Positions 11,832 through 31,674 of a stretch of 64,000 nt of DNA are shown piece by piece. The translations under genes were made by a program, and so were the position numbers. The first letter of the stretch is position 1. Each line of letters begins with the position of its first letter. This stretch comes from Solirubrobacterales bacterium (GTDB lineage Bacteria; Actinomycetota; Thermoleophilia; Solirubrobacterales; 70-9). Under the pieces are notes generated by a model, which did not search any database, was not told the origin of the DNA, and saw only the letters and a program-made list of their open reading frames with translations. Location: positions 62,001 through 126,000 of the forward strand of contig DATMZR010000006.1 in NCBI GenBank assembly GCA_035573435.1, given 5' to 3'.

Positions 11832-12341
11832 CTACTTCGGGAGAGCCGCGACGTAGAAGGGCAGGTTCGTGAAGGTCGCCGGCGCCGTGGCGGCCAGGGC
11901 GGTGTTGACGCCCACGTGGCGCTTGTCGTTGGGAGCGTCTGGACTGCAGTCCGAGCCGACGCCCGTCCCTCCGTTGCAGAGGGTCGCGTCGGCGATCACC
12001 CTGCCGTTCACCCCGGATGCGACCAGTGCCCGGCCCGAGACGTTCTTGTGGAAGTTGACTACGTAGGAGCCCTCACCCAGGGGCTTGACCGTAATGCCGC
12101 CCGACTGGTCGGCGATGGTCCCGTTGGACTTGACGGCCGCCCACAGGGTGCGTTGATCGCCACTTAACTTCTTCTTCGTCACGGCCTTCTTGTGGAGCTT
12201 CTTCGCGGTGACGGCGTTGTTCTCGATGTCGTTGGTGCCGATCGTCGCGGCCGCCCAGCTGATCCCGCCGACCGCCACGAAGAGCGCGATCGAAGCGACA
12301 ACCATCGCCGGCGACGGTCGAAACCACCTCAAATTCCTCAT
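11832..12341 (-). CDS. Exported hypothetical protein with Thermoleophilia-type leader
   Basis: 169 residues. N-terminus 'RPSPAMVVASIALFVAVGG' is a hydrophobic export/anchor segment that I associate with large families of exported proteins in Thermoleophilia. It is followed by a polar spacer typical of the group (GTNDIENNAVTAKKLHKKAV) and a beta-rich C-terminal domain with two cysteines. A GGGGAG-like Shine-Dalgarno stretch precedes ATG 12341. Function unknown; cell-surface location inferred. Confidence 0.75.
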   Translation of the reverse strand: MRNLRWFRPSPAMVVASIALFVAVGGISWAAATIGTNDIENNAVTAKKLHKKAVTKKKLSGDQRTLWAAVKSNGTIADQSGGITVKPLGEGSYVVNFHKNVSGRALVASGVNGRVIADATLCNGGTGVGSDCSPDAPNDKRHVGVNTALAATAPATFTNLPFYVAALPK

Positions 12342-14719: not shown

Positions 14720-15532
14720 ATGACCCGCGCCACCCTTGTCAGGCTGATCGCCGCGATCCTGGTGCTGACCGTCGTCACAGCGGTGCCGATGACGCAGATC
14801 CATTGGGATGGCACCCAGGCCTCGACCGAGGCCGACAAGATCGACACGCTGCTCAACGTGATGATCGTCCTGTCGTGCTTCGTGTTCGCGATCGTCATGG
14901 TGATGCTCGGCTACAGCATCTGGAAGTACCGGGCGAAGCCGGGTGACGAGTCCGACGGCGAGCCGATCCACGGCAACACGAAGCTCGAGATCACCTGGAC
15001 GGTGATCCCCACCGTGATCGTCCTCTTCGGCGCGATCTACAGCTGGATCGTGCTCGGCGACCTCGAGAGCAAGGCGTCCGACAGGCTCCACATCGACGTC
15101 ACGGCGCAGCAATACAAGTGGACCTTCAACTACCCGCAGGCCAACGGGAAGGTGGTGAGCTCAAGTGAGCTGGTGGTACCCGAGGACCGCCAGCTCGACC
15201 TCCATCTGACGGCTCTCGACGTGATCCATTCGTTCTGGGTACCGGAGTGGCGGATCAAACGCGACCTGGTCCCGGCCGGCCCCGGGGGCAACGACGTCGA
15301 CAACACGGTCCAGGTGACCCCGGACCGGCTCGGCACCTACAACGTGGTCTGCACCGAGCTCTGCGGGTTCGGCCACGCGACGATGCGGGCGTTGGTCCGG
15401 GTGGTCCCCGAGGACGAGTACAACAGCTGGCTGGGCCGCCAGCAGCAGGTCGAGCCCCAGCCCGGGAGCCCGAGCGGGCGAGTTACCGGCACCCCTTCTG
15501 AGGGCACGTCGAGCGCGACGGACGGGACATGA
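14720..15532 (+). CDS. ctaC: Cytochrome c oxidase subunit II (CuA-binding)
   Basis: 270 residues. Two N-terminal membrane helices are followed by a periplasmic-side cupredoxin domain. All CuA ligands are present: H170 (LDVIHSFW), then C211, E213, C215, H219 and M222 in CTELCGFGHATM. Accepts electrons from cytochrome c and passes them to subunit I. There is no C-terminal heme c domain, so this is an aa3- rather than caa3-type subunit. First gene of ctaC-ctaD-USP-ctaE, 15 bases after the glycosyltransferase gene. Confidence 0.96.
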   Translation: MTRATLVRLIAAILVLTVVTAVPMTQIHWDGTQASTEADKIDTLLNVMIVLSCFVFAIVMVMLGYSIWKYRAKPGDESDGEPIHGNTKLEITWTVIPTVIVLFGAIYSWIVLGDLESKASDRLHIDVTAQQYKWTFNYPQANGKVVSSSELVVPEDRQLDLHLTALDVIHSFWVPEWRIKRDLVPAGPGGNDVDNTVQVTPDRLGTYNVVCTELCGFGHATMRALVRVVPEDEYNSWLGRQQQVEPQPGSPSGRVTGTPSEGTSSATDGT

Positions 15533-15564: not shown

Positions 15565-17490
15565 TTGGCAGCGGCGCTGAAGAGACCAGGGATGGCGCGC
15601 GGGGGGCTCGGCCTCTTGCTCGGCGGGGCATTCGGCCTCGGCTTGGTGGTGGCCCTGCGGGCCCTGGCGGGCCTGGAGATCTTCCAGACCGAGCAGACGG
15701 GATACCCGCAGATCATCGTCCCGGCGATCTTCATGCCGATCGGGTTCCTCGCGGGTATCGGCGCCTTCGACTACTGGTTCCGGTGGGCGATCGGCGGCCC
15801 CACCTACCCGGCGGAGCTCGAGCACGCCGATCACGGTGCCTACTCGTGGCGCGATTACTTCAAGTTCAACACCGATCACAAGGTGATCGGGATCCAGTAC
15901 ATCTGCACGACCTTCATCTTCTTCTTCATCGGGGGCGCGCTGGCGATGGTCATGCGCGCCGAGCTGGCGCAGCCGGGCACCCAGATCGTGGAGCCCGCGG
16001 CATTCAACGGGCTCTTCTCCACCCACGCCGCGATCATGATCTTCGTCTTCGTGATCCCCGTGTTCGCGGGGATCGCCAACTACGTGCTGCCGCTGATGAT
16101 CGGGGCGCCGGACATGGCCTTCCCGCGCCTGAACGCGCTCAGCTTCTGGATGCTGCCCTTCGCCGGCCTTCTGTTCGTGGCCAGCTTCCTGGTACCCGGC
16201 GGGGCGTTCGACGCCGGCTGGACCGGCTACGCGCCGTTATCCACGGGGGCGCCGCTGGGTCAGTCGTTCTTCAACCTCGGCGTGCAGTTCGCCGGCTGGT
16301 CGTCGGTGGCGACCGCCCTCAACTTCCTCGTGACGATCATCACCATGCGGGCGCCGGGCATGAACTTCTGGCGCATGCCGCTGCTGGTCTGGGCCAACCT
16401 GTCCACCTCGCTGCTGGTCGTCGCCGCGACCCCGTTCATCGCTGGTGTGCAGTTCCTGGTCCTCTTCGACCGCGCCCTGCACACCAACTTCTTCCAGGCC
16501 CTGAACGGCGGCGACGTGCTCAGTTACCAGCACATCTTCTGGTTCTACTCGCACCCGGCGGTCTACATCATGATGCTGCCGGGCTTCGGGATCGTCTCCG
16601 AGGTGATCTCCACCAACGCCCGCAAACCAATCTTCGGCTACCGGTTGATGGCGCTGGCGCTGATCGGGATCGTGGTCCTCAGCTACACGGTGTGGGCGCA
16701 CCACATGTTCGTCTCCGGGATGTTCAGCTGGCTGCGCGTGCCGATGATGATCACGACACTCCTGATCGCGGTCCCGACCGGGATCAAGATCTTCTCGTGG
16801 CTCGGGACCCTGTTCGCCTCGAAGCTGCACCTGCGCTCCACCGCGATGCTGTTTGCGCTGGCCTTCATCGTCACCTTCACGATGGGCGGGATCAGCGGGG
16901 TGATGCTCGGCATGGTGCCGATCGACATCCACGTCTCCGACACCTACTTCATCGTCGCCCACATCCACTTCGTGCTCTTCGGCGGCTCGGTGTTCACGAT
17001 CTTCGCCGGCATCTATCACTGGTTCCCGAAGATGACCGGGCGGATGTACGACGAGAGGCTCGGCAGAGTCCACTTCTGGCTGACCCTGGTTGGGATGTAC
17101 GGCACCTTCCTGCCGATGCACTGGATCGGGATGGAGGGGATGCCGCGCCGGGTGGCCGATTACTCGGCCCAGTTCGGCGACTGGAACCTCGTCATCTCCT
17201 GCTTCGGGTTCCTGCTCGGCGTCGCCCAGCTCATCTTCCTCTACAACATGGTCGTCAGCTGGAAGTGGGGGCCCCTGGCCGGCGACAACCCGTGGCGGGC
17301 GAAGACGATCGAGTGGCTGGTCTCGTCGCCGCCGCCGATCTTCAATTTCGACCAGGTGCCTCGGGTCGTTGGCGGGCCCTACGAGTTCGGCGTCCCGGGT
17401 GCCCGCCACGCCATCATCGGCCCAGCCGAGGCGGACGTCGGTGCGGCGCAACCCGCAGTGGCCGGAACGGCTTCAGGCAGGAGCCCATGA
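15565..17490 (+). CDS. ctaD: Cytochrome c oxidase subunit I, A2-type heme-copper oxidase
   Basis: 641 residues. Heme/CuB ligands are all present: H154 (FSTHAAIM), H330 and Y334 (FWFYSHPAVY, Cu-Tyr crosslink pair), H379/H380 (VWAHHMF), H466 and H468 (VAHIHFVL). Helix VI carries YSHPAV instead of a Glu, the hallmark of A2-type oxidases. An N-terminal extension of about 100 residues adds two hydrophobic segments before the conserved TDHKVIG. TTG start at 15565 has GAGGTAGGA just upstream; ATG 15592 is the alternative. ATGA overlap with the next gene. Confidence 0.96.
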   Translation: MAAALKRPGMARGGLGLLLGGAFGLGLVVALRALAGLEIFQTEQTGYPQIIVPAIFMPIGFLAGIGAFDYWFRWAIGGPTYPAELEHADHGAYSWRDYFKFNTDHKVIGIQYICTTFIFFFIGGALAMVMRAELAQPGTQIVEPAAFNGLFSTHAAIMIFVFVIPVFAGIANYVLPLMIGAPDMAFPRLNALSFWMLPFAGLLFVASFLVPGGAFDAGWTGYAPLSTGAPLGQSFFNLGVQFAGWSSVATALNFLVTIITMRAPGMNFWRMPLLVWANLSTSLLVVAATPFIAGVQFLVLFDRALHTNFFQALNGGDVLSYQHIFWFYSHPAVYIMMLPGFGIVSEVISTNARKPIFGYRLMALALIGIVVLSYTVWAHHMFVSGMFSWLRVPMMITTLLIAVPTGIKIFSWLGTLFASKLHLRSTAMLFALAFIVTFTMGGISGVMLGMVPIDIHVSDTYFIVAHIHFVLFGGSVFTIFAGIYHWFPKMTGRMYDERLGRVHFWLTLVGMYGTFLPMHWIGMEGMPRRVADYSAQFGDWNLVISCFGFLLGVAQLIFLYNMVVSWKWGPLAGDNPWRAKTIEWLVSSPPPIFNFDQVPRVVGGPYEFGVPGARHAIIGPAEADVGAAQPAVAGTASGRSP

Positions 17491-18362
17491 CGAACCCGGA
17501 GCCATCCGATCACCGAGCCGCCGAGGCCGAACGCGACGGCGGCGTGATCTTGGCCTTCCTCAACGAGGTGGCGGGCGGGCGCAAGCTGCTGGAGACGCTT
17601 CGCGACCGAGTCGGGGCAGGAGCGGACGGGGTGGCGCTCGCGGCTCCGCAAAACCAGCCGATGGCCGGCCAGATCGTCGACCGCGACGAGGTCCGTGAGG
17701 CCGCACAGAGCCGGGTCGAGGTGACCCAGGCGGTGCTCGGGGACTTCGGGATCGAGGCCGCAGGGGCGGTGATGGACCCCGATCCGGCCCTTGCCCTCGA
17801 CGACGCCATTCGCGCCTTCGCTCCGCGCGAGGTCCTGCTCTCGTGCCTCTACGACACCCGCTTCGGGATGACGCGCAAGGACCTGGTGGAGTGGGCGAAG
17901 CAGCGCTTCGACGTCCCGGTCACCCACATCCCGGTTCGGATCGAGGACGACGCGATCCGCTGGGACGTGACGCACACCCTTGTCGTCGCCACCCAAACCG
18001 TCGCAAGTGCCGATTTGGTCGCCCGCCTGAAGGCAAAGGCCGCCGAGCATCCTCAGCGCTACACGTTCATCAGCCCGCCCTCAGGGCAGCTGAGCCGGGA
18101 AGAGGTCTGCGAGCGTCTCGCCCGCACCCTGGCGGAGCTCTACCGCTCGGATATCGACGCCACAGGTCAGCCGATGAGCCCGGCGCCGCTGGCCGCCATC
18201 CGGAACGCGATCGAGCACTACCGGGTGGACGAGGTGCTGATCTCTACCCTCGCTGGCGAGAGGTCGAAGTGGCTCGAGGAGGGCCTGATCGACGAGGTCC
18301 GGGCGATGACGGACAAGACGGTGGAGCACGTCGAGGCAAGTCCTGACGAGGTGGCAGCCTGA
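17487..18362 (+). CDS. Universal-stress-like (USP/Rossmann) protein embedded in the oxidase operon
   Basis: 291 residues from ATG 17487; soluble, no membrane segment. Two repeats are apparent, each ending in a 'xEVLxSxLxxxxxxW' strand: REVLLSCLYDTRFGMTRKDL and DEVLISTLAGERSKWLEEGL. The second is closely matched by DEVIISTHPPQKSKWLERGV in the protein at 24621. Overlaps ctaD (ATGA) and ctaE (TGATG), so it is translated in step with the oxidase subunits. Nucleotide binding is likely from the fold, but the function in oxidase biogenesis or regulation is unknown. Confidence 0.75.
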   Translation: MTNPEPSDHRAAEAERDGGVILAFLNEVAGGRKLLETLRDRVGAGADGVALAAPQNQPMAGQIVDRDEVREAAQSRVEVTQAVLGDFGIEAAGAVMDPDPALALDDAIRAFAPREVLLSCLYDTRFGMTRKDLVEWAKQRFDVPVTHIPVRIEDDAIRWDVTHTLVVATQTVASADLVARLKAKAAEHPQRYTFISPPSGQLSREEVCERLARTLAELYRSDIDATGQPMSPAPLAAIRNAIEHYRVDEVLISTLAGERSKWLEEGLIDEVRAMTDKTVEHVEASPDEVAA

Positions 18363-18970
18363 TGGAAGCCCACGCCGTTGCCGCCGAGCATCACGGCCCG
18401 CCCGAGGCTCATCAGAGCTCCCGGATCGACCGCCAAACGCTCGGGATCCTGATCTTCATCGTCTCCGAGGTGATGCTGTTCGGCTCGTTCTTCGCCGCCT
18501 ACTTCTTCCTTCGCGTGGTCGCTAACGTGGGCCCGTGGCCGCCGGAGGGCCTCGAGATCCCGAAGGCGGTGGCCGGCGTCAACACGGCGATCCTGATCTC
18601 CTCGAGCTTCACGGTCCACTGGGCCCTGGAGTCGATCCGGCGCGGCAACCGCCGGGGCCTGATCATGGGCCTGGCCGCCACCTGGCTGCTCGGTGCCACG
18701 TTCCTGTTCATCCAGCTGAACGAGTACTGGCACATCGGCTTCAGCGCCCGCGACACCGCCTTCGGGTCGATCTTCTACGCCCTTACCGGCCTTCACGGCG
18801 CCCACGTGACGGTGGGGCTGGGGCTCCTGGCCGCTGCGAACATCCGCGCCTGGCGCGGTCATTTCACCTCGAAGCCGAAGGAGCACCTCGGCGTCGAGGT
18901 GCCGGGGATCTACTGGCACTTCGTGGACGTGATGTGGATCATCGTCTACACGACGGTCTACATCCTCTAG
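18362..18970 (+). CDS. ctaE: Cytochrome c oxidase subunit III
   Basis: 202 residues with five predicted membrane helices, the short bacterial form. Conserved blocks: GILIFIVSEVMLFGSFFAAYFF, TGLHGAHVTVGL and the C-terminal YWHFVDVMWIIVYTTVYIL. Start overlaps the stop of the USP-like gene by one base. Last gene of the operon; a 6-bp hairpin (CTCGCC/GGCGAG, 18992-19006) and a 12-bp tandem repeat (19015-19038) follow. Confidence 0.95.
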   Translation: MEAHAVAAEHHGPPEAHQSSRIDRQTLGILIFIVSEVMLFGSFFAAYFFLRVVANVGPWPPEGLEIPKAVAGVNTAILISSSFTVHWALESIRRGNRRGLIMGLAATWLLGATFLFIQLNEYWHIGFSARDTAFGSIFYALTGLHGAHVTVGLGLLAAANIRAWRGHFTSKPKEHLGVEVPGIYWHFVDVMWIIVYTTVYIL

Positions 18971-19070: not shown

Positions 19071-19640
19071 CTAGCAGACCACCACCAAACGGAACGGCTT
19101 GTTGGTCGACGTACCATCGCTGTCCCAGGTGATCACGCTCACGGACTCCGCGTTGCCGGTGGTATCCGTGAGGGAGACCTCCCCGGGCGGCAGGATGGAG
19201 CCTGTCGAGGGACCGAGCGTCGCCACGGCGGTGCACGCAGCGATGTTGCGCGCGAAATCGACGTCGTAGTTGCCCGCCCCGTGGCTGACCGTGGTCACGC
19301 CCCCGCCGCTCGAATTGGCGAGCGTGCCGCTGCTGTTTACCTCGGCAAACAGCACCCCGACGTCCTGGTTGGTGAGGCTGAAGTCCGCGATGTCGGGACC
19401 AGCGACGCTGCCATTGGCCACCTCGCTGGAGCCGACCGAGTTGGAGCGAAGGTCGGCGGCTACGAGCCCGCCCGCCGGATTTCCGCCGCTCGCCGGTTGG
19501 GTGTCATTCGCGACGTCGTCGGTAAAGACCGTGTTCGAGCCGCTCAAGGCAACGGCGGTGGTGCCTCCCCCGAGTGCGATGAAGACGGCGAGCGTGGCCA
19601 TCACGTTGGCATACGTCAGATGGGATCGGATACGGCTCAT
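19071..19640 (-). CDS. Exported protein with 'LTYANVMATL' leader
   Basis: 189 residues. The N-terminus (RSHLTYANVMATLAVFIALG) is a hydrophobic export segment followed by SGSNTVFTDDVAND; the same cassette opens the 694-residue protein at 20585. Then comes a polar spacer (VAADLRSNSVGSSEVANGS) and a beta-rich C-terminal domain ending PFRLVVVC. GGGAGGAGCC precedes ATG 19640. Surface or secreted location is inferred; function unknown. Confidence 0.75.
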   Translation of the reverse strand: MSRIRSHLTYANVMATLAVFIALGGGTTAVALSGSNTVFTDDVANDTQPASGGNPAGGLVAADLRSNSVGSSEVANGSVAGPDIADFSLTNQDVGVLFAEVNSSGTLANSSGGGVTTVSHGAGNYDVDFARNIAACTAVATLGPSTGSILPPGEVSLTDTTGNAESVSVITWDSDGTSTNKPFRLVVVC

Positions 19641-20584: not shown

Positions 20585-22669
20585 TCAGCCGGTGGCCGTC
20601 CTGGCGCGAAGTGCGCCCTGCCAGCGCAGGGCAACGGCGGCACCGAGTGCCGCGCAGCCAAGGCAGAGAAATGCGAGTGCCCAAGGCGGCAGCGAGGAAC
20701 CACCTGCACCAGGGTCGCTGGCGGTGCGGGCCGGAGTATCGAGGTGGCGCTCAAGCTCACGGACCTTGTCGTTCAGGCCCTTGATCGCCGCCAGCGAGAT
20801 CCCGTCGGCGTCGATCGAGGTGATGTGGCGCGAATCTTCGCCGACCCCGAACGCGCGGCTCACATCCTGGGCCATGGGGCCGATGTGGCGGACCGAGGGT
20901 CCCTGCGCCCGGTAGCTCCACTCGGAGATCGGAACCGAGGCAAGCTTCCGCAGCACCTCGCGCCCGGAGACCGGGGTGATCGCGGTCTTCGAGGCCTCGT
21001 CTGAGAGCGAGGCCCAGGAGCCGCCACCGGAAGCCAAGGTGACGCCGGCGGTCGGATTACCGCTGCCGTCGATGGCCGAGACGAACCGGGCCCCGCCAGT
21101 CGAGCGGACGCTGAACTCGTTGGCCGCTGTGGAGGCGAAGCTGAAGGGCTTCGAGTCCGCCCAGACGAACGCCCCGTCATGGTCGGCCTCGGCTTGCATC
21201 CCGGCTGCCAGGCTGTTGTTCCCCGCTGCGGTGTTGTCCTGGCCGGCCGGAACGGTGGCGGCGATGCCACTCGCGGTGTTGCCGTCGCCGCCGCCGACGG
21301 CCGCACCACTGCCGATGGCGGCGTTGTTGACACCCCCGCCCACGGTGGCGCTGGGCGCGCTGGCGGTGTTGTTTCGACCCCCGCCCACGGTCGTGTCTGT
21401 TCCGCTTGCAATGTTCGACTGGCCGCCGCCGACCGTGGCGCGTAGCCCGTTGCCGAGGTTGGAGAGCCCCCCGCCGACCGTGGAGTCGAGTGCGCTGGCG
21501 GTGTTGCTTTCCCCCCCAGCGACGGTCGAGCTGCTCCCGCTGGCGGTGTTGCTGCCGCCACCCCCGACCGTGGCGAGCTTCCGGTCGCTGACCGTGCCGG
21601 CGGCGTTGCCGGCCTGGTTGTTGGCACCTCCGCTGACCGTGCCCTGGTGGTCGGTGACCTTGTTCGCGGTCGCCGCGAGCGACGGCGTGCCGCGGCCCCC
21701 GCCCGCGATCACGGCCGAGTGTACGCCCGGCGTGACGGCGTTGTCGGCGATCCCGCCGATCACGTTGGGACTTTGGTTGGTGCCATCCGATGCCGGCGCA
21801 ATCCGCAGGCCGCGGGCATTGTTGACCCGGAAGTTGAGCGCCTGGTTGTCGGTTGTGCCGAGGAAGTTGGCGGCCGGGTTAGTGCCCGAGTCGCCCGTGA
21901 GCGACCAGTCGTTGCCGGTCGCATCGGTGCCGTCGACGAAATCAGCGGGAACCCCGTTGAGCACGTTCCAGTGGAGGAAGTTCGAGCCCGTGTTCGGGGC
22001 GCTGCCATCCGAGGTGGAGAGCTCGGCTTTCGTGAAGTAGCGGTTGTCGTGATCGTGCGCCGCCGCTGCGAAGTCGGCCGAGCTTTGGCCGTCGAGCAGG
22101 TCGGCGTCGAGACCAGATCCCGAACCGTCGTCGTTGGCGATCTCGCTCAGCGCGGCGCCATCGGCGATGTCGGTGGCATTGACGCAGCCCGAGCAACTGA
22201 CGTCGGAAGCGGTGCCACCGGTGTCGTCGGACCCGTCAGCGAAGCCGGCGGGAACCCCGTTGAGCACGTTCCAATGGAGGAAGTTCGAGCCCGTGTTCGG
22301 GGCGCTGCCATCCGAGGTGGAGAGCTCGGTCTTCGTGAAGTAGCGCCCGTCGTGGTCGGCCGAGGCCATATGGGCGTCGAGCTCCGGCTGGGTAGCCGGG
22401 TCGAAGCCAAGCTTTGGGATCGAGACGGCGCCGCTGGCCAACTCGCTGGTGGCGACCGCGCCCGGCCTCAGGTCGACCGCCGCGAGCCCACCACCCTCCA
22501 GGGTGTCGTTTCGAACGTCGGCGCTGTACACCTCGTTGTTGGTGATGTCGTCCGAGAAGACTGTGTTCGAGCCGCTCAGGGCGACGGCACTGCCCCCGCC
22601 TATGAGGAGAAACAGGCACAAGGTCGAGATGACGTTGGCGTAGGTCAGGCGGTCGCGAACAGGGCGCAT
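20585..22669 (-). CDS. YadA-head / Hep-Hag repeat protein with C-terminal peptidase S74 intramolecular chaperone domain
   Basis: 694 residues. Order: export leader (RLTYANVISTLCLFLLIGGG), spacer, two near-identical repeats containing STSDGSAPNTGSNFLHWNVL, then about ten collagen-like head repeats of the type TVGGGxxNTASG (residues about 325-490), then WADSKPFSF and a peptidase S74 domain (from about 550) with the Ser-Lys dyad S556/K561 in LSDEASKTAITP and the IGPMAQDVSRAFGVGED and DADGISLAAIKGLN blocks. A coiled coil and a final membrane helix (PPWALAFLCLGCAALGAAVAL) close the protein. S74 domains trimerise fibres and then self-cleave. AAGGAGGAAGCC precedes ATG 22669. Confidence 0.88.
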   Translation of the reverse strand: MRPVRDRLTYANVISTLCLFLLIGGGSAVALSGSNTVFSDDITNNEVYSADVRNDTLEGGGLAAVDLRPGAVATSELASGAVSIPKLGFDPATQPELDAHMASADHDGRYFTKTELSTSDGSAPNTGSNFLHWNVLNGVPAGFADGSDDTGGTASDVSCSGCVNATDIADGAALSEIANDDGSGSGLDADLLDGQSSADFAAAAHDHDNRYFTKAELSTSDGSAPNTGSNFLHWNVLNGVPADFVDGTDATGNDWSLTGDSGTNPAANFLGTTDNQALNFRVNNARGLRIAPASDGTNQSPNVIGGIADNAVTPGVHSAVIAGGGRGTPSLAATANKVTDHQGTVSGGANNQAGNAAGTVSDRKLATVGGGGSNTASGSSSTVAGGESNTASALDSTVGGGLSNLGNGLRATVGGGQSNIASGTDTTVGGGRNNTASAPSATVGGGVNNAAIGSGAAVGGGDGNTASGIAATVPAGQDNTAAGNNSLAAGMQAEADHDGAFVWADSKPFSFASTAANEFSVRSTGGARFVSAIDGSGNPTAGVTLASGGGSWASLSDEASKTAITPVSGREVLRKLASVPISEWSYRAQGPSVRHIGPMAQDVSRAFGVGEDSRHITSIDADGISLAAIKGLNDKVRELERHLDTPARTASDPGAGGSSLPPWALAFLCLGCAALGAAVALRWQGALRARTATG

Positions 22670-25311: not shown

Positions 25312-26010
25312 CTAGCCCTGCTTGCCGCCGCCCTGCGAGCCCGAGTACTTGAGCAGGAAGTTGACCAGGTCGTTCAGCTCCTGCGGGCTGATCAGCTGGG
25401 CGAAGTTCTTCGGCATTACGTCCGCGTAGCCCGGGGCGATCTTGGCGCTGGGATCGACGATCGACTGCTTGACCTCGGCGGCGCTCATCCCGGGAATCAC
25501 CTTGTCGAGGTCCGGGCCCGTGGTGCCGGAGGCCCCAGCCGCCTTCAGGGTGTGGCAGCCGGAGCACTGATTGTTCGCGAACACGGTCGCCCCCGGGTCG
25601 TTGGGTAGCTGCGGCCCCTTGATTCCCGGCACCCCGGCGACGCTGGCCACGTAGCTCGCGACGTCCTCGAGGTCGTCTCCGGTCACCAGGTTGGCGGGCA
25701 TGGAGACGCTCGGGTTGTTCGTGCTCGGGCGGGGATTCTCGACCTGAGCCTTGACCACGCCCGCGACCGTGTCGGAATCCATGCCGGAGGCGCGCGCCTG
25801 CGCGAACGCCGCATCGAGATCGGGCCCCTGGAGCGCGCCCGTGCTCCCTGCGTCCTTGAGCGCATGGCAGCTCGCGCATTTGCTTGTGAACAGCACCTGA
25901 CCGCGATCGGTGTTGCCGCTCTCCGCGACACCGCAGCCCGTGGCGGTGAGCAACGCGATCCCGATGAGCGCGAGGGTTACGCGGCGCGCCGCTCGCCGGG
26001 GCATGGGCAT
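25312..26010 (-). CDS. Diheme c-type cytochrome lipoprotein
   Basis: About 232 residues. Signal peptide with lipobox LLTATGC, so membrane-anchored by lipid. Two class I cytochrome c domains with CASCH and CSGCH heme sites; methionines in SVSMPANL (first domain) and DVMPKNF (second) are the likely axial ligands. Located between the two oxidase clusters, it is a reasonable electron donor to the canonical CtaC, which lacks its own heme c domain; this is inference. ATG 26010 is chosen; a GTG at 26022 is the alternative. Confidence 0.88.
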   Translation of the reverse strand: MPMPRRAARRVTLALIGIALLTATGCGVAESGNTDRGQVLFTSKCASCHALKDAGSTGALQGPDLDAAFAQARASGMDSDTVAGVVKAQVENPRPSTNNPSVSMPANLVTGDDLEDVASYVASVAGVPGIKGPQLPNDPGATVFANNQCSGCHTLKAAGASGTTGPDLDKVIPGMSAAEVKQSIVDPSAKIAPGYADVMPKNFAQLISPQELNDLVNFLLKYSGSQGGGKQG

Positions 26011-26157
26011 CCGTCTCGCCACTGGTGCCGGATCCTATCGTCGGCGCGCGGCGCCAAGCCCGGCTGGGCGACGGAGCACTTGGCGTCCGTGACGGTTTCG
26101 GCTAGGGTTGCCGCAATACGCACTAGCGCGCACGAATCGCCCCAGGGAGCACGCTGA

Positions 26158-26594: not shown

Positions 26595-26867
26595 CTACCG
26601 CTCGCGCTGTCTCAGCGGCACTGCCGGCAGCACCGCCGAGGTGAGACGCTGCTCGCGCGGAAGCCTGGAGATCTCGTCCCGCGTGCCCCTGATCCAGGCC
26701 CGCAGTGCGGCCAGCAGGACTACCCCGCCGGCCACGGCGTACGGAAAGCCCGTGAACAGGCCTACGAGCACTCCGGCGAGCCCGGCCGCGGCGAGCACCG
26801 GCAGCCAGGAGGGGGCCGGCGTGTAGACCAACTCGGAGGGCTCGGGTGGCTGGCGACCGTCTGCCAT
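26595..26867 (-). CDS. Small membrane protein, cytochrome c oxidase subunit IV-like
   Basis: 90 residues with two membrane helices (SWLPVLAAAGLAGVLVGLFTG and PYAVAGGVVLLAALRAWIRG) and soluble tails. Size, topology and position at the end of the heme A/oxidase operon match the small subunit IV family of actinobacterial oxidases; there is no diagnostic residue. It begins 7 bases after the 36-residue ORF and is the last gene of the minus-strand operon. Confidence 0.6.
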   Translation of the reverse strand: MADGRQPPEPSELVYTPAPSWLPVLAAAGLAGVLVGLFTGFPYAVAGGVVLLAALRAWIRGTRDEISRLPREQRLTSAVLPAVPLRQRER

Positions 26868-27039: not shown

Positions 27040-27975
27040 TCAGCCGAGGAGCACCCGATCTGCCGCCATCGCGCAGAAGAGGAGCGCCAGGTAGGCGAGG
27101 GAACCGAGGTGAAGGCGGACCGCCGCCGCCTTCGAGGGTCGCAGGGCGAGATCCGCCGCCAGGCCGACGAAGCAGACACCCAGCGCCAGCGCCGCGACCA
27201 GGTAGAGGGCTCCGAAGAGGCCGGTGAGGAACGGCAACGCAGTGAACGCCACCAAGGCCAGGCTGTAGGCCAGGATTTGGCGGCGCGTCGCCGCCTCGCC
27301 CCTGGCGACCGGCAGCATCGGGATGCCGGAGCGCTCGTAGTCGTCCTTGACCAGTAGGGCCAGCGCCCAGAAGTGAGGGGGCGTCCACAGGAAGACGACC
27401 GCGAACGGATAGAGCGCGTCCAGGCTCAGGGCTCCCGTGGCCGCCGCCCAGCCGACCAGCGGGGGCACGGCGCCGGCGGCTCCGCCGATCACGATGTTCT
27501 GGGGAGTGAGCGGCTTCAGCCAGAGCGTGTAGACGAACACATAACCCAGCAACCCGGCGAGCGCCAAGGCCGCCGCCAGGGCGTTCACCGCAAATGTGAG
27601 CTCGGCAACCGCCAGGGCGCCGAGCGCGATCCCGAACGCCAGGCCGCGGCGCGGCTGGATGCGCCCGGCGACCAGCGGGCGCCCGCAGGTTCGCGCCATG
27701 CGGGCGTCGCGGTCACGCTCCAGGTAGTGGTTGATCGCTCCGGCGCCGCCCGCGGCCAGGTACCCCCCGAGCATCGTCCAGAGGACCGTAGCCAGGGCCG
27801 GCCCGGAGGGGTCGGCGACGAACATGGTGGCCACGGTCGTGACCAGCAGCAGGGTGATGATCCGCGGCTTGGTGAGCGTCAGGTAATCGCGCAGGACCTT
27901 GGCAAACGGCCGCCGCGCCGCAAGCGGCGCGGGTATCGCCGGCGCGAGCTCACCGGTGTTGGTGGCGCTCTCCAT
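27040..27975 (-). CDS. ctaB: Protoheme IX farnesyltransferase (heme O synthase)
   Basis: 311 residues, about eight or nine membrane helices; UbiA-family prenyltransferase that converts heme B to heme O. Diagnostic acidic blocks: INHYLERDRDARMART (first Asp-rich loop with RPLVAGRI) and the second loop with WTPPHFWALALLVKDDYERS. Starts 5 bases after the ctaA stop, so ctaA and ctaB are co-transcribed. Confidence 0.96.
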   Translation of the reverse strand: MESATNTGELAPAIPAPLAARRPFAKVLRDYLTLTKPRIITLLLVTTVATMFVADPSGPALATVLWTMLGGYLAAGGAGAINHYLERDRDARMARTCGRPLVAGRIQPRRGLAFGIALGALAVAELTFAVNALAAALALAGLLGYVFVYTLWLKPLTPQNIVIGGAAGAVPPLVGWAAATGALSLDALYPFAVVFLWTPPHFWALALLVKDDYERSGIPMLPVARGEAATRRQILAYSLALVAFTALPFLTGLFGALYLVAALALGVCFVGLAADLALRPSKAAAVRLHLGSLAYLALLFCAMAADRVLLG

Positions 27976-27980
27976 GGTGG

Positions 27981-29021
27981 TCAGGCGGTGGCCGCCTGGG
28001 TCTCGGTGGCCCTAGAGCCCTGGACGCCTCGGCGGGCGTCGGCCGGCACAGCGAGCAAAGAGGCCGCCGCCTGCACGACCGTCGCCCAAAGCAGCGTAGC
28101 CAGTGTCAGGTGGGCGACGATCAGCGCGGGATGCTTGCCCAGCCACACGTTTAGCGCCCCGAGCAGGATCTGAAGGGCGAGCAGCGCCGGTGCGAGGAGG
28201 AAGGGGAAGAACCGGTTCCATGCGGCGGGGTCGCTCGGTCGGCGCCGGAACGCCAGGACGGTCATCGCCGTGACCGCGATCGCGGTCAGGTACATGAACA
28301 GCCTGTGGGTCAGCTGGATGTCCACCAGCCGGCCGTACTGGAACGGCATGAACCCATCCAGGCAGCCCGGGAACTCCGTCCCGCAGGCGAGATGAGCGCC
28401 GAGCACCGGCTGGTTCGCTGTTCCCTCGCCCTCGGTCCCGGCGACGTAGCCACCTGCGACGATCGTCCCGAACAGCAGCGCGGTCGCCACGGCGGCGGTC
28501 GCCCGCAGGGCGCGTGAGCCGTCCACGGGGGGCGAGTCCTGCGACGGGCGAGCGATCCGGTACAGGAGGATGAGCAAGCCCAGGAGCAACATCGCCAAGC
28601 CGAGGTGGGCAGCGACCAAGGCCGAGTGAAGCCCGTGCTCGACGGTCAGGCCGCCCAGGCCCGCCTGAGCGAGGACGAGGATCGCGGCGGCGACCGAGCC
28701 CCGCACGAGCCAGCGGTGATCGCGCAGGCGACGCAGCGCCTGGATGGCGAGCGCCGCGATCAGCACCGTCACGATCGTCGCCGCCACCCTGTGGCTGAAC
28801 TCGATCACGGCGTTCTGCTGCAGGAAGGGCAGCGCCCGTCCGCCGCAGAGTGGCCAGCCCTCGGTGCCGCTCCCGGCGGCGCCGCAGCCGAGGCCGGAGT
28901 CGCTCACGCGCACCACGCCGCCGATCACGATGAGGGCGAAGGTCGAGAGCATGGTCGCGGTCAGCCAGCGGCGGAAGCGAGCAAGCTCGTCCGCTTCGCC
29001 ACGAGGAGCGACGCGGTTCAT
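27981..29021 (-). CDS. ctaA: Heme A synthase
   Basis: 346 residues, eight membrane helices in two four-helix halves. It has GGVVRVSDSGLGCG with a Cys pair (GLGCG ... WPLCGG) for the first extracellular loop, IEFSHRVAA (catalytic Glu and heme-ligand His), HLGLAM, a second Cys pair (LACGTEFPGCLDG), LTHRLFMY and IVAHLTLATLLW. Oxidises heme O to heme A for the A-type oxidase. Lies directly downstream of the ligand-less CoxI homologue (5-base gap). Confidence 0.95.
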   Translation of the reverse strand: MNRVAPRGEADELARFRRWLTATMLSTFALIVIGGVVRVSDSGLGCGAAGSGTEGWPLCGGRALPFLQQNAVIEFSHRVAATIVTVLIAALAIQALRRLRDHRWLVRGSVAAAILVLAQAGLGGLTVEHGLHSALVAAHLGLAMLLLGLLILLYRIARPSQDSPPVDGSRALRATAAVATALLFGTIVAGGYVAGTEGEGTANQPVLGAHLACGTEFPGCLDGFMPFQYGRLVDIQLTHRLFMYLTAIAVTAMTVLAFRRRPSDPAAWNRFFPFLLAPALLALQILLGALNVWLGKHPALIVAHLTLATLLWATVVQAAASLLAVPADARRGVQGSRATETQAATA

Positions 29022-29026
29022 CGAGC

Positions 29027-30808
29027 TCAGGCTACCGGGGCGTCGCCGGATGGGTCCTGGTCGGCGCCGCCTGCCTGCGCCGGCTCCGGTTCGAACGGCT
29101 GAGCGACCGGCTCGGCCCGCCGGGTCGGCTCGGGCGAACGCCAGCTCTCGGTCCGCTCGCGGATCGCGCGACGGATGTCTTCGAGTGGCTCGGCGCTGCG
29201 AACGTCGGGGACCACGTCAAAGTTGTGCTCCGGAGGGGGCGAGAGCGCGAACCATTCGAGCGTCGACCCGCCCCACGGATCGTGCCCTGCGCGGACGCCG
29301 CGCCCCCAGCTGTACGCGACGTTCCCAAGCTCCAGAAGTACCCCGACGGCGACCACGAAGGCGGCGATCGAAGCGACGACATTGAAGCCGTCCAGCCCAT
29401 TGCCCTCAAAGAACTTGTAGACGTCGGCCGGCTGACCCTTGAGACCCGCGAGGAAGCTCGCCAGCGCGTACGCGTAGATGCCGGCGAGGATCGCCACCAG
29501 CGCGGCCTTAGCTGAGCCCTCGCCCATCATGCGTCCGGTGAGCTTCGGGAACCAGTAGTGGAGCGCAGCGAAGCCGCCAAGTACGGCGCCACCGGCCAGC
29601 ACCGCGAAGGTGTCACCGTGCGCAGCCGCGGTGTTGTCCAGCTGCCAGCCGACGGGGATCACGGAGTAGGCGAGCTCACCGGCCAGCCCGATCGACATCG
29701 CGCCGATCGCGCCGAGCGCGTATAGAGGCGCGGCCCGGAGATGCAACGTCCCCTCCCAGAGGGTTGCGATCCAGATGAAGATCAGGAGCCCAACCGGGAC
29801 CGTGAGCGTGAGCGCGACCAGCATCGCGAAGATCTCGAACCCGATCGGGATCGGGGCCGTATACATGTTCTGCATCCAGGCCAGGGGCCCGAGCACGCCG
29901 ATCGCCAGCAGCGAGATCATCGCGCCCCGATGGCTGAACAGGGGCTTGCGCGTGAACGTCGGCAGGACGTCGGAGATCACACCGGCGGCCACGATCACGA
30001 CCAGCGTGTAGGCGCCGGTGAAGAAGAACCAGGCGAAATGCTCGTACAGAAGGGGCGCTCCGCCCTCGCCGGCGTCGAAGAAGACGCCGTCGTAGTTGCG
30101 GTCGATGAACAGCATCGTGAGCGCGGCCAGCATCACCGGGCCGATGGCGAGCAGCAGGTAGCCGCCGACGCCGGCCGCCCAGGACAGCAGGGGCACTCGG
30201 CGCCAGGCCATCCCGGGGGCGCGCATGGTGTGAAGCGTGACGACCAGATTGATCGCGAAGAAGACGAAGCCGAGGATCGCGAGCGCCGAGCCGACGATCC
30301 AGGCATCGACGCCACCGACGTCCGAGAAGGCCTTCTCCGACAGCGGCGGCAGGGCCGCCAGCCCGGTATCGGGCGGCGTCCACAGCAAGCTGGCGTAGAC
30401 GGTGGTCGCCCCGGCCAGGTACAGCCAGAACGAGAGCAGATTGAGGCGCGGGAAGGCGACCCCGCGGGAGCCGATCTGCAGCGGGACGATATAGCCGATC
30501 AGCCCCAGGCCAAACGGGATCGCAAACAGGATCACCGAGGTGACTCCGAACACCGACAGCACCCGGTCGAAGATGTCAGGGTGAATTGCGGTGTTCTCGG
30601 GCACGATCAGCTGCACTCGAAGCAGCACGAGCTCGATGACCGCAAGCACGCCGAAGCACAGCGCGGTACCCAGGTAGAGGATCCCGACCGACTTGTGGTT
30701 CGCGCTGGTCGCTCGCTCGATCCACTCGGCGCGGCGACGCGGGATCCCGTCCGTGACGACCTCGGGGCGGGGCGGGGACACGTTGGTGGTCGCCGTGGGT
30801 GGGGTCAT
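29027..30808 (-). CDS. Ligand-less cytochrome c oxidase subunit I homologue (pseudo-oxidase)
   Basis: 593 residues from ATG 30808, with the CoxI fold and order: NHKSVGILYLGTAL, YIVPLQIGSRGVAFPRLN, LHTMRAPGMAWRRVPLL, TRKPLFSHRGAM, LHYWFPKLTGRMM, then the C-terminal SPPPEHNFD. Every metal or heme ligand of canonical CoxI is replaced: low-spin heme His by F87 (SVFGVT), CuB His and crosslinking Tyr by T264 and T268 (WFFFTGAYT), the CuB His pair by Q313/N314 (WMQNMY), and the HxH heme pair by D399/F401 (HGDTF). No frameshifts or stops, so the gene is maintained. Catalytic O2 reduction is not possible by known chemistry. ATGA overlap with the CoxII homologue; upstream of ctaA. Confidence 0.9.
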   Translation of the reverse strand: MTPPTATTNVSPPRPEVVTDGIPRRRAEWIERATSANHKSVGILYLGTALCFGVLAVIELVLLRVQLIVPENTAIHPDIFDRVLSVFGVTSVILFAIPFGLGLIGYIVPLQIGSRGVAFPRLNLLSFWLYLAGATTVYASLLWTPPDTGLAALPPLSEKAFSDVGGVDAWIVGSALAILGFVFFAINLVVTLHTMRAPGMAWRRVPLLSWAAGVGGYLLLAIGPVMLAALTMLFIDRNYDGVFFDAGEGGAPLLYEHFAWFFFTGAYTLVVIVAAGVISDVLPTFTRKPLFSHRGAMISLLAIGVLGPLAWMQNMYTAPIPIGFEIFAMLVALTLTVPVGLLIFIWIATLWEGTLHLRAAPLYALGAIGAMSIGLAGELAYSVIPVGWQLDNTAAAHGDTFAVLAGGAVLGGFAALHYWFPKLTGRMMGEGSAKAALVAILAGIYAYALASFLAGLKGQPADVYKFFEGNGLDGFNVVASIAAFVVAVGVLLELGNVAYSWGRGVRAGHDPWGGSTLEWFALSPPPEHNFDVVPDVRSAEPLEDIRRAIRERTESWRSPEPTRRAEPVAQPFEPEPAQAGGADQDPSGDAPVA

Positions 30809-31674
30809 GGCCCGCCCCCCTGGATGGCGCTCTTGGCGACCCTCCGCAGAACGTACCCCTGGGCCGCGCGCAGCTCGGTCCTCTTCCGTTGCACGTAGTC
30901 CTCGTAAGCGGCGGGGCTGACCACGCGCACCCACGCCCGCATCACCGAAAAGGCGCTGTAGGCAAACGAGGTCGATTGCCCCCGGTAGACGCCCTCGCGA
31001 TCGGCTCGGAACCAGGTCTCAGCTGTCTTGCCGGGTACCGCATCGACCTGGCCCCCGAGGGTGGGGATGAACCACCGGTGCATCACGTCGGTTGAGGTGA
31101 TGCGAAGGACGACGGCAGTGTCGACGGGCACGACCAGCTCGCCGTAGGAGAACACCCGGTCACCCTGCCGTCCGCCCGGATACTCGAACCGCCATAGCCA
31201 CTGCTGCCCGATCACGTTGATCGTGAGTGGCTTGGTGTCGGCCGTTGCAGCGAGCCCCCCGACCTGGGCGACCAGGCTCCTCGACCCGGCCAGGCCCTCG
31301 GGACCGGTTGGCTTCACGTCGCGCGCCGCGCCAGCCATCACGACCCCCACGATGAACATGCCGGCCGCGACGATCACCAGCGGGACGGCGGGCCGAGTCA
31401 GGGCGCCCTGCGCCGCTGAGAAGCGACGTGGGGTTCGCCCCCGGCGGGCCCGGAAGCGGACGATCGCGGCGATGCCCAGGACGTGAATCGCGATCACCAG
31501 CAGCGCAGCGACCGTGATCGCTATCCAGTAGGCCGTGCGGATGTCGTCGGCGTTCGGCGAGTGCCCCGCACGGGGGCCAAAGATCGTCGCCTGCGCGGGA
31601 GCCGCGAACACCGCCATGGCGAGGGCAGCGAGCAGCACGGCCAGGCCAAGCCCCGATGCAGCCTTCGGCTTCAC
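30805..31674 (-). CDS. CuA-less cytochrome c oxidase subunit II homologue
   Basis: 289 residues from GTG 31674, where a signal-like helix begins (ASGLGLAVLLAALAMAVFAA). Two more membrane helices and a cupredoxin domain follow. The CuA loop aligns residue for residue with CtaC of this window but reads STSFAYSAFSVM instead of CTELCGFGHATM: both Cys are lost (S234, A238) and the second His is F242, while the first His (H199, STDVMHRW) and M245 remain. The aromatic electron-entry patch region QQWLWRFEY is retained. An in-frame ATG at 31821 would overlap the upstream gene, so the GTG is preferred. Confidence 0.85.
   Translation of the reverse strand: MKPKAASGLGLAVLLAALAMAVFAAPAQATIFGPRAGHSPNADDIRTAYWIAITVAALLVIAIHVLGIAAIVRFRARRGRTPRRFSAAQGALTRPAVPLVIVAAGMFIVGVVMAGAARDVKPTGPEGLAGSRSLVAQVGGLAATADTKPLTINVIGQQWLWRFEYPGGRQGDRVFSYGELVVPVDTAVVLRITSTDVMHRWFIPTLGGQVDAVPGKTAETWFRADREGVYRGQSTSFAYSAFSVMRAWVRVVSPAAYEDYVQRKRTELRAAQGYVLRRVAKSAIQGGGP

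Follow-up and report, generated by a model that had tools for sequence, protein, structure and literature searches.

A gene pair on the minus strand of a 64,000-nucleotide stretch of Solirubrobacterales DNA (contig DATMZR010000006.1, positions 62,001 to 126,000; the whole stretch is called the window) encodes homologues of CoxI and CoxII, the core subunits of cytochrome c oxidase, and constitutes a pseudo-oxidase: the CoxI fold is kept, but the sites for heme a, heme a3, CuB and CuA are lost, as are both proton channels. It arose in place and is orthologous to an active A1-type cytochrome c oxidase. By descent and fold the pair is thus a heme-copper oxidase; by the metal sites that define such an enzyme, it is not one. 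Few membrane enzymes are as well studied as the heme-copper oxidases, a family defined by its histidines, yet a conserved group without them exists.

Pseudo-CoxI (P0001; 29027..30808, minus strand) has 593 amino acids and an ATG start, and pseudo-CoxII (P0002; 30805..31674, minus strand) has 289 amino acids and a GTG start. Both frames are intact and overlap in the sequence ATGA. Membership of the COX1 and COX2 families is beyond doubt from Pfam, NCBIfam and PDB searches (Pfam COX1, PF00115, E 1.3e-85, 288 bits; Pfam COX2, E 6.7e-19), and the pair does not reach the cut-offs set for functional NCBIfam models. The AlphaFold2 model of pseudo-CoxI as a single chain shows 12 helices (mean predicted local distance difference test score 83, predicted template modelling score 0.84). 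Foldseek aligns this model with CoxI structures in the PDB at template modelling scores of 0.80-0.85, the nearest being actinobacterial and proteobacterial CoxI.

The substitutions were read by aligning the pair with the window's own canonical pair, i.e. CoxII at 14720..15532 and an A2-type CoxI at 15565..17490 (both plus strand), identified by Pfam and carrying every ligand. In helix II of pseudo-CoxI, F87 (30548..30550) replaces the low-spin heme His. T264 and T268 in helix VI (30005..30019) stand for a CuB His and the cross-linking Tyr, and Q313-N314 (29867..29872) for the CuB His pair. In helix X, D399 replaces the heme a3 His and F401 the low-spin heme His (29606..29614), and A461-D462 (29423..29428) occupy the positions of the heme-propionate Arg pair. 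None of the six heme and CuB histidines remains, and the cross-linking Tyr is gone too. Further losses are the D-channel Asp (now G116), the K-channel Lys (L342) and the Mg-site Asp (N392). The former CuA loop of pseudo-CoxII (30940..30975; S234-S236-A238-F242-M245) reads S-x-S-x-A-x3-F-x2-M in place of C-x-E-x-C-x3-H-x2-M, where S234, A238 and F242 stand for Cys, Cys and His and S236 for the CuA Glu; only H199 and M245 are left of the CuA ligands. All these positions are on the minus strand. An earlier sequence-only reading of the window had given the gene coordinates and frames correctly, and each substitution it named, together with the intact ligands of the canonical pair, is confirmed by the alignment. 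It follows, from the residues examined and established knowledge of the family, that a pair of this kind can neither reduce oxygen nor pump protons by the mechanism known for these enzymes.

Are these losses peculiar to one assembly? The family to which the window belongs, termed f1 here (order Solirubrobacterales, class Thermoleophilia, phylum Actinomycetota; f2 and f3 are other families of the same order, and f4 is a further family), consists of soil and water bacteria, and its named records are Solirubrobacterales metagenome-assembled genomes (MAGs), including bins 67-14 and 70-9. Pseudo-CoxI was found throughout f1 at 43-77% identity in a search of 60 relatives. In a sample of the class, 38 of 40 f1 genomes gave a strong match to the pseudo-oxidase; G035 has a fragment at a contig end and G004 has none. 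An assembly or binning error is ruled out by presence of the pair in 39 of the 40 genomes (the fragment included), one of which, G006, is a single-contig genome. G004 (locus L063), 97% complete, keeps canonical CoxI and CoxII but shows no match for the pseudo-oxidase or for ctaB; an assembly gap is possible there. Two records titled Bifidobacterium breve MAG (L096 and L100) carry a Solirubrobacterales-type oxidase locus and are probably mislabelled.

Ligand columns were read in 34 f1 genomes and five further records. The CuB histidines, the heme a3 His and the helix-II low-spin His are absent from all of these sequences (one is gapped at the helix-II site), and no f1 CoxII read has a CuA Cys. 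The helix-X low-spin His is retained in about half of the f1 sequences, without its partner. In nearly all, the CuB His pair has become Q-N (Q 97%, N 100%), and D462 is conserved at 97%. The substitutions are far beyond chance, as the same columns are ligand-free in about 39 f1 sequences and kept in the active homologues. No further ligand-lacking group appeared among 30 loci from a phylum-wide sample, a search that was not exhaustive.

The origin of the pair can be read from gene order. Families f2 and f3 have a CoxII-CoxI pair in the same slot with all ligands and the A1-type Glu. On one side the shared order has a thioredoxin-reductase-like gene, a flippase-like gene and a PAP2 gene; on the other it has ctaA and/or ctaB, a small membrane protein, a CBS protein, a cytochrome c and the operon of the canonical oxidase. 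Nearby, most loci of sufficient length also carry an A2-type oxidase with CoxIII. Because sister families keep every ligand in this syntenic slot, the pseudo-oxidase arose in place, and a paralogue brought from elsewhere is ruled out. The sequence-only reading had counted ligand-keeping homologues at the same operon position as evidence against repurposing. Such homologues exist, but with the whole of f1 and two further groups degenerate, they point to degeneration in place and do not refute repurposing.

In the window, ctaA (heme A synthase; 27981..29021, minus strand; Pfam COX15-CtaA, E 9.2e-42) starts 5 nucleotides 3' of pseudo-CoxI, and ctaB (heme O synthase; 27040..27975, minus strand; above the cut-off of the NCBIfam heme o synthase model) follows after another 5, so that the operon of ATGA-coupled genes, ctaA and ctaB described earlier is borne out here. 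Among relatives, the ctaB part of this context holds and the ctaA part does so incompletely: ctaB comes next after the pair, directly or behind ctaA, in every degenerate locus of f1, f4 and L103 (a lake MAG discussed below) with enough downstream sequence, but several of the related genomes have no adjacent ctaA, and there the pair is followed directly by ctaB. The distance from the CoxI stop to the next start is 4-7 nucleotides in most f1 loci, also where ctaA is gone; active loci mostly have at least 10. In L059, L069-L071 and L088-L093 (f1 genera g11 and g12), whose slot lacks ctaA, a very divergent ctaA-like frame adjoins the cytochrome c gene. In L068, L071, L079 and L085, the ctaB beside the pseudo-oxidase groups with f3 rather than f1 ctaB while pseudo-CoxI stays with f1, a possible in-place gene replacement.

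Loss of the metal sites occurred more than once. In f4, represented by five genomes of one genus, the pair is also degenerate, with substitutions different from those of f1, and some CoxII members lack H199 as well. In L103 (genome G155, family f2), the three CuB histidines, the a3 His and most of CuA are lost and the low-spin heme His pair is kept; G180 and G330, of the same genus and 66-67% identical, keep all ligands. A tree of canonical CoxI, with twelve sequences from other Thermoleophilia as its root, places L103 inside the active families (support 97/95), groups f4 with active families (100/98) and sets f1 apart. On this tree the approximately unbiased (AU) test rejects a single origin of all degenerate lineages, i.e. 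a clade of f1, f4 and L103 (p-AU 0.0004), and also a clade of f4 with L103 (p-AU 0.018); a clade of f1 and f4 is not rejected (p-AU 0.22). These two rejections show at least two independent losses, and there were probably three. The tree of slot CoxI joins f1 and f4 with support 99, but no branches are longer than theirs, and the method can suffer from long-branch attraction. The two families share an S...SG..Y loop in CoxII, close to that of Escherichia coli CyoA; convergence in this loop is easy, since a single base change turns Cys into Ser or His into Tyr.

Do the degenerate genes remain under selection? The ratio of non-synonymous to synonymous substitution rates (omega) was estimated with a codon model (F3x4) that allows for the very high GC content at third codon positions (GC3). 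It is 0.031-0.090 for pseudo-CoxI in f1, 0.065-0.070 in f4 and 0.117 for one pseudo-CoxII pair, compared with 0.017-0.046 for canonical CoxI, and all pairs reject omega = 1 (likelihood ratio at least 66). Nei-Gojobori values of 0.3-0.7 for most close pairs were discarded, as this method ignores the high GC3 and the untrimmed frames included the upstream overlap. The L103 branch, part of which predates the loss, has an omega of 0.13 and its active relatives one of 0.066, and for L103 omega = 1 is again rejected; the one-omega run of this branch model converged poorly and was not used. The ratio is thus not near 1, and purifying selection is strong, in genomes that also possess an intact second oxidase. 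Together with family-wide ligand loss, this supports the earlier proposal of an intact, conserved, non-catalytic complex with loss in both partners, and the substitutions are not unique to this assembly.

Conservation did not fall evenly. From active homologues to f1, mean identity drops from 99 to 52% in the ligand columns and from 70 to 54% in the membrane helices. It changes from 78 to 72% in the cytoplasmic C-terminal tail, from 82 to 81% in cytoplasmic loop 4-5 and from 48 to 49% in the N-terminal segment. R82, Q111, Q313, N314, E378 and D462 are among the residues that are at least 93% conserved in f1 and not shared with active homologues.

How does the pair compare with known systems? 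With the A1-type oxidase it has in common the 12-helix CoxI fold, the CoxII periplasmic domain, the operon with heme O/A synthases and the orthologous slot. It differs in that f1 has no complete low-spin heme, high-spin heme, CuB or CuA site, and the D-channel, K-channel and propionate residues are gone. CyoA of E. coli cytochrome bo3 is likewise CuA-less and has the same loop, S-x-x-[FY]-S-G-x-x-[FY]-x-x-M. Loss of CuA in CoxII alone is ordinary, as in quinol oxidases, so that the CuA substitutions reported by the sequence-only reading are right but not unusual by themselves. CyoB, however, retains its heme and CuB ligands together with a quinol site, and pseudo-CoxI does not. At the positions of the CyoB quinol-site residues R71, D75, H98 and Q101, P0001 has L, E, I and R. 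With R71, H98 and Q101 absent and the oxygen reduction centre gone, a quinol oxidase is ruled out. Alternative complex III is also ruled out, as the genome has no NrfD match. Nitric oxide reductases belong to the same fold family but keep the six histidines, of which P0001 keeps none.

Among membrane pseudoenzymes, e.g. the iRhoms of the rhomboid protease family, catalytic residues are lost while fold and selection are kept. A heme-copper oxidase example was not found in the literature searched, nor was any description of a metal-free CoxI/CoxII; only open-access papers were covered, and absence from these is not proof. A heme-copper reductase database removed sequences lacking the six histidines when it was built, and applied this acceptance criterion to nitric oxide reductases as well (PMC3084760). 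This filter may be why metal-free genes went unseen.

What role could such a complex have? We tentatively favour, at somewhat less than even confidence, the view that the pair may be a non-redox membrane scaffold tied to the heme O/A synthases and to oxidase assembly. This comes closest to the oxidase-assembly or heme-A-handling chaperone of the sequence-only reading, and is preferred to the regulator of oxidase biogenesis proposed there. Even while active, the ancestral oxidase might have bound CtaB, CtaA and further partners in assembly on its cytoplasmic side. After an A2-type oxidase had taken over all respiration, catalysis by the A1-type enzyme could have been lost and the docking function retained. 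The pseudo-oxidase would then hold CtaB and CtaA, or the step of heme A hand-over, next to the assembling A2 oxidase, and as a scaffold it would trap no heme or copper itself. Possible, though doubtful, is the wider proposition that a metal-free branch of heme-copper oxidases, arisen at least twice and probably three times at one locus, acts as a scaffold dedicated to the synthesis or insertion of heme A.

The scaffold is favoured by the position of ctaB, which comes after the pair in all degenerate loci that extend far enough downstream, by the 4-7 nucleotide spacing and by the lack of a match to either the pair or ctaB in G004. It is supported by the fall of conservation in the membrane core, with little change in the cytoplasmic C-tail and loop 4-5. 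A complex of CtaA with CtaB is known, and CtaA is proposed to bind subunit I in its apo form (PMC9145763); in a Surf1 mutant, subunit I is assembled even without heme (PMC5249081). Several points weigh against it. Linkage to ctaB and ctaA is inherited from the active ancestor, the whole block being syntenic, and is therefore weak evidence of function; ctaA is non-adjacent in several genera; and families without the pseudo-oxidase equally lack Surf1. Surf1 gave no match in 29 genomes of the order; a Corynebacterium control was positive. As all genomes of the order that were tested lack it, its absence is rejected as a correlate of the pseudo-oxidase.

Another role might be that of an inert structural subunit in a respiratory supercomplex, with a bc-type complex or the A2 oxidase, where the pair would set architecture or stability. 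The nearest folds include CoxI of actinobacterial III2-IV2 supercomplexes, but this similarity is unspecific and common to all CoxI. Also in its favour, a single bc-type cytochrome b is encoded in the genome, and at locus L083 (4196-5197) an f1-type metal-free CoxII still ends in a cytochrome c domain (C-terminal; CSVCH, Pfam Cytochrome_CBB3), in the manner of caa3 oxidases; the active slot CoxII of L095 has one too. The fusion is, however, found in only one degenerate genome, and a structural subunit of this kind seems unlikely.

The emptied cavity could instead have become a transporter, channel or sensor, with Q313, N314, E378, D462, R82 and T400 as a putative polar site for an ion or small molecule. 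These residues are 93-100% conserved in f1 and different in active homologues. They differ in f4 and L103, however, so there is no common new site, and the D- and K-channel residues are lost, which makes such a role improbable. The same loss weakens the proton channel proposed in the sequence-only reading and disfavours proton passage by the D or K route. Still less probable is a residual or alternative redox cofactor, whereby some members would bind one heme or metal, e.g. through the low-spin heme His pair that L103 keeps or through H199 and M245 of CoxII, both kept in f1 and L103; in f1 the low-spin His of helix II is always missing, both propionate Arg are gone and there is no conserved new His/Cys cluster, and some f4 members have lost H199 too. 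A slowly decaying, functionless relic would suit the repeated degeneration and the apparent loss of the pair from G004, but it is very improbable given frames intact in the genomes read, omega of 0.03-0.12 with omega = 1 rejected, and conserved family-specific residues.

Active sister genes in the same slot, together with an independent repeat of the loss, provide a natural experiment on roles of CoxI and CoxII apart from electron transfer. If the scaffold reading is true, oxidase core subunits would have a selectable non-redox function able to outlive catalysis. The pseudo-oxidase also offers a handle on how heme A is inserted in bacteria. For metagenomics, a COX1 or COX2 annotation in a MAG is no proof of a working oxidase.

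Several other genes around the pair fit the shared gene order. A small membrane protein (26595..26867, minus strand) that follows ctaB in many related loci has no Pfam hit, with similarity matches at the same place in those loci. A di-heme cytochrome c with two CxxCH motifs (25312..26022, minus strand; two stretches matching Pfam Cytochrom_C) is a conserved syntenic neighbour. CoxIII of the canonical oxidase lies at 18362..18970 (plus strand; Pfam COX3, E 4.2e-44). In the canonical A2-type CoxI, the COX1 domain is preceded by an N-terminal extension that has hydrophobic stretches and is about 100 residues long; the Pfam COX1 match starts at residue 108. Near the oxidase genes, predicted proteins at 11832-12341, 19071-19640 and 20585-22669 (minus strand) share similar N-terminal stretches and represent a repeated, unannotated family; a LTYANV...ALSGSNTVF stretch is present in two of the three.
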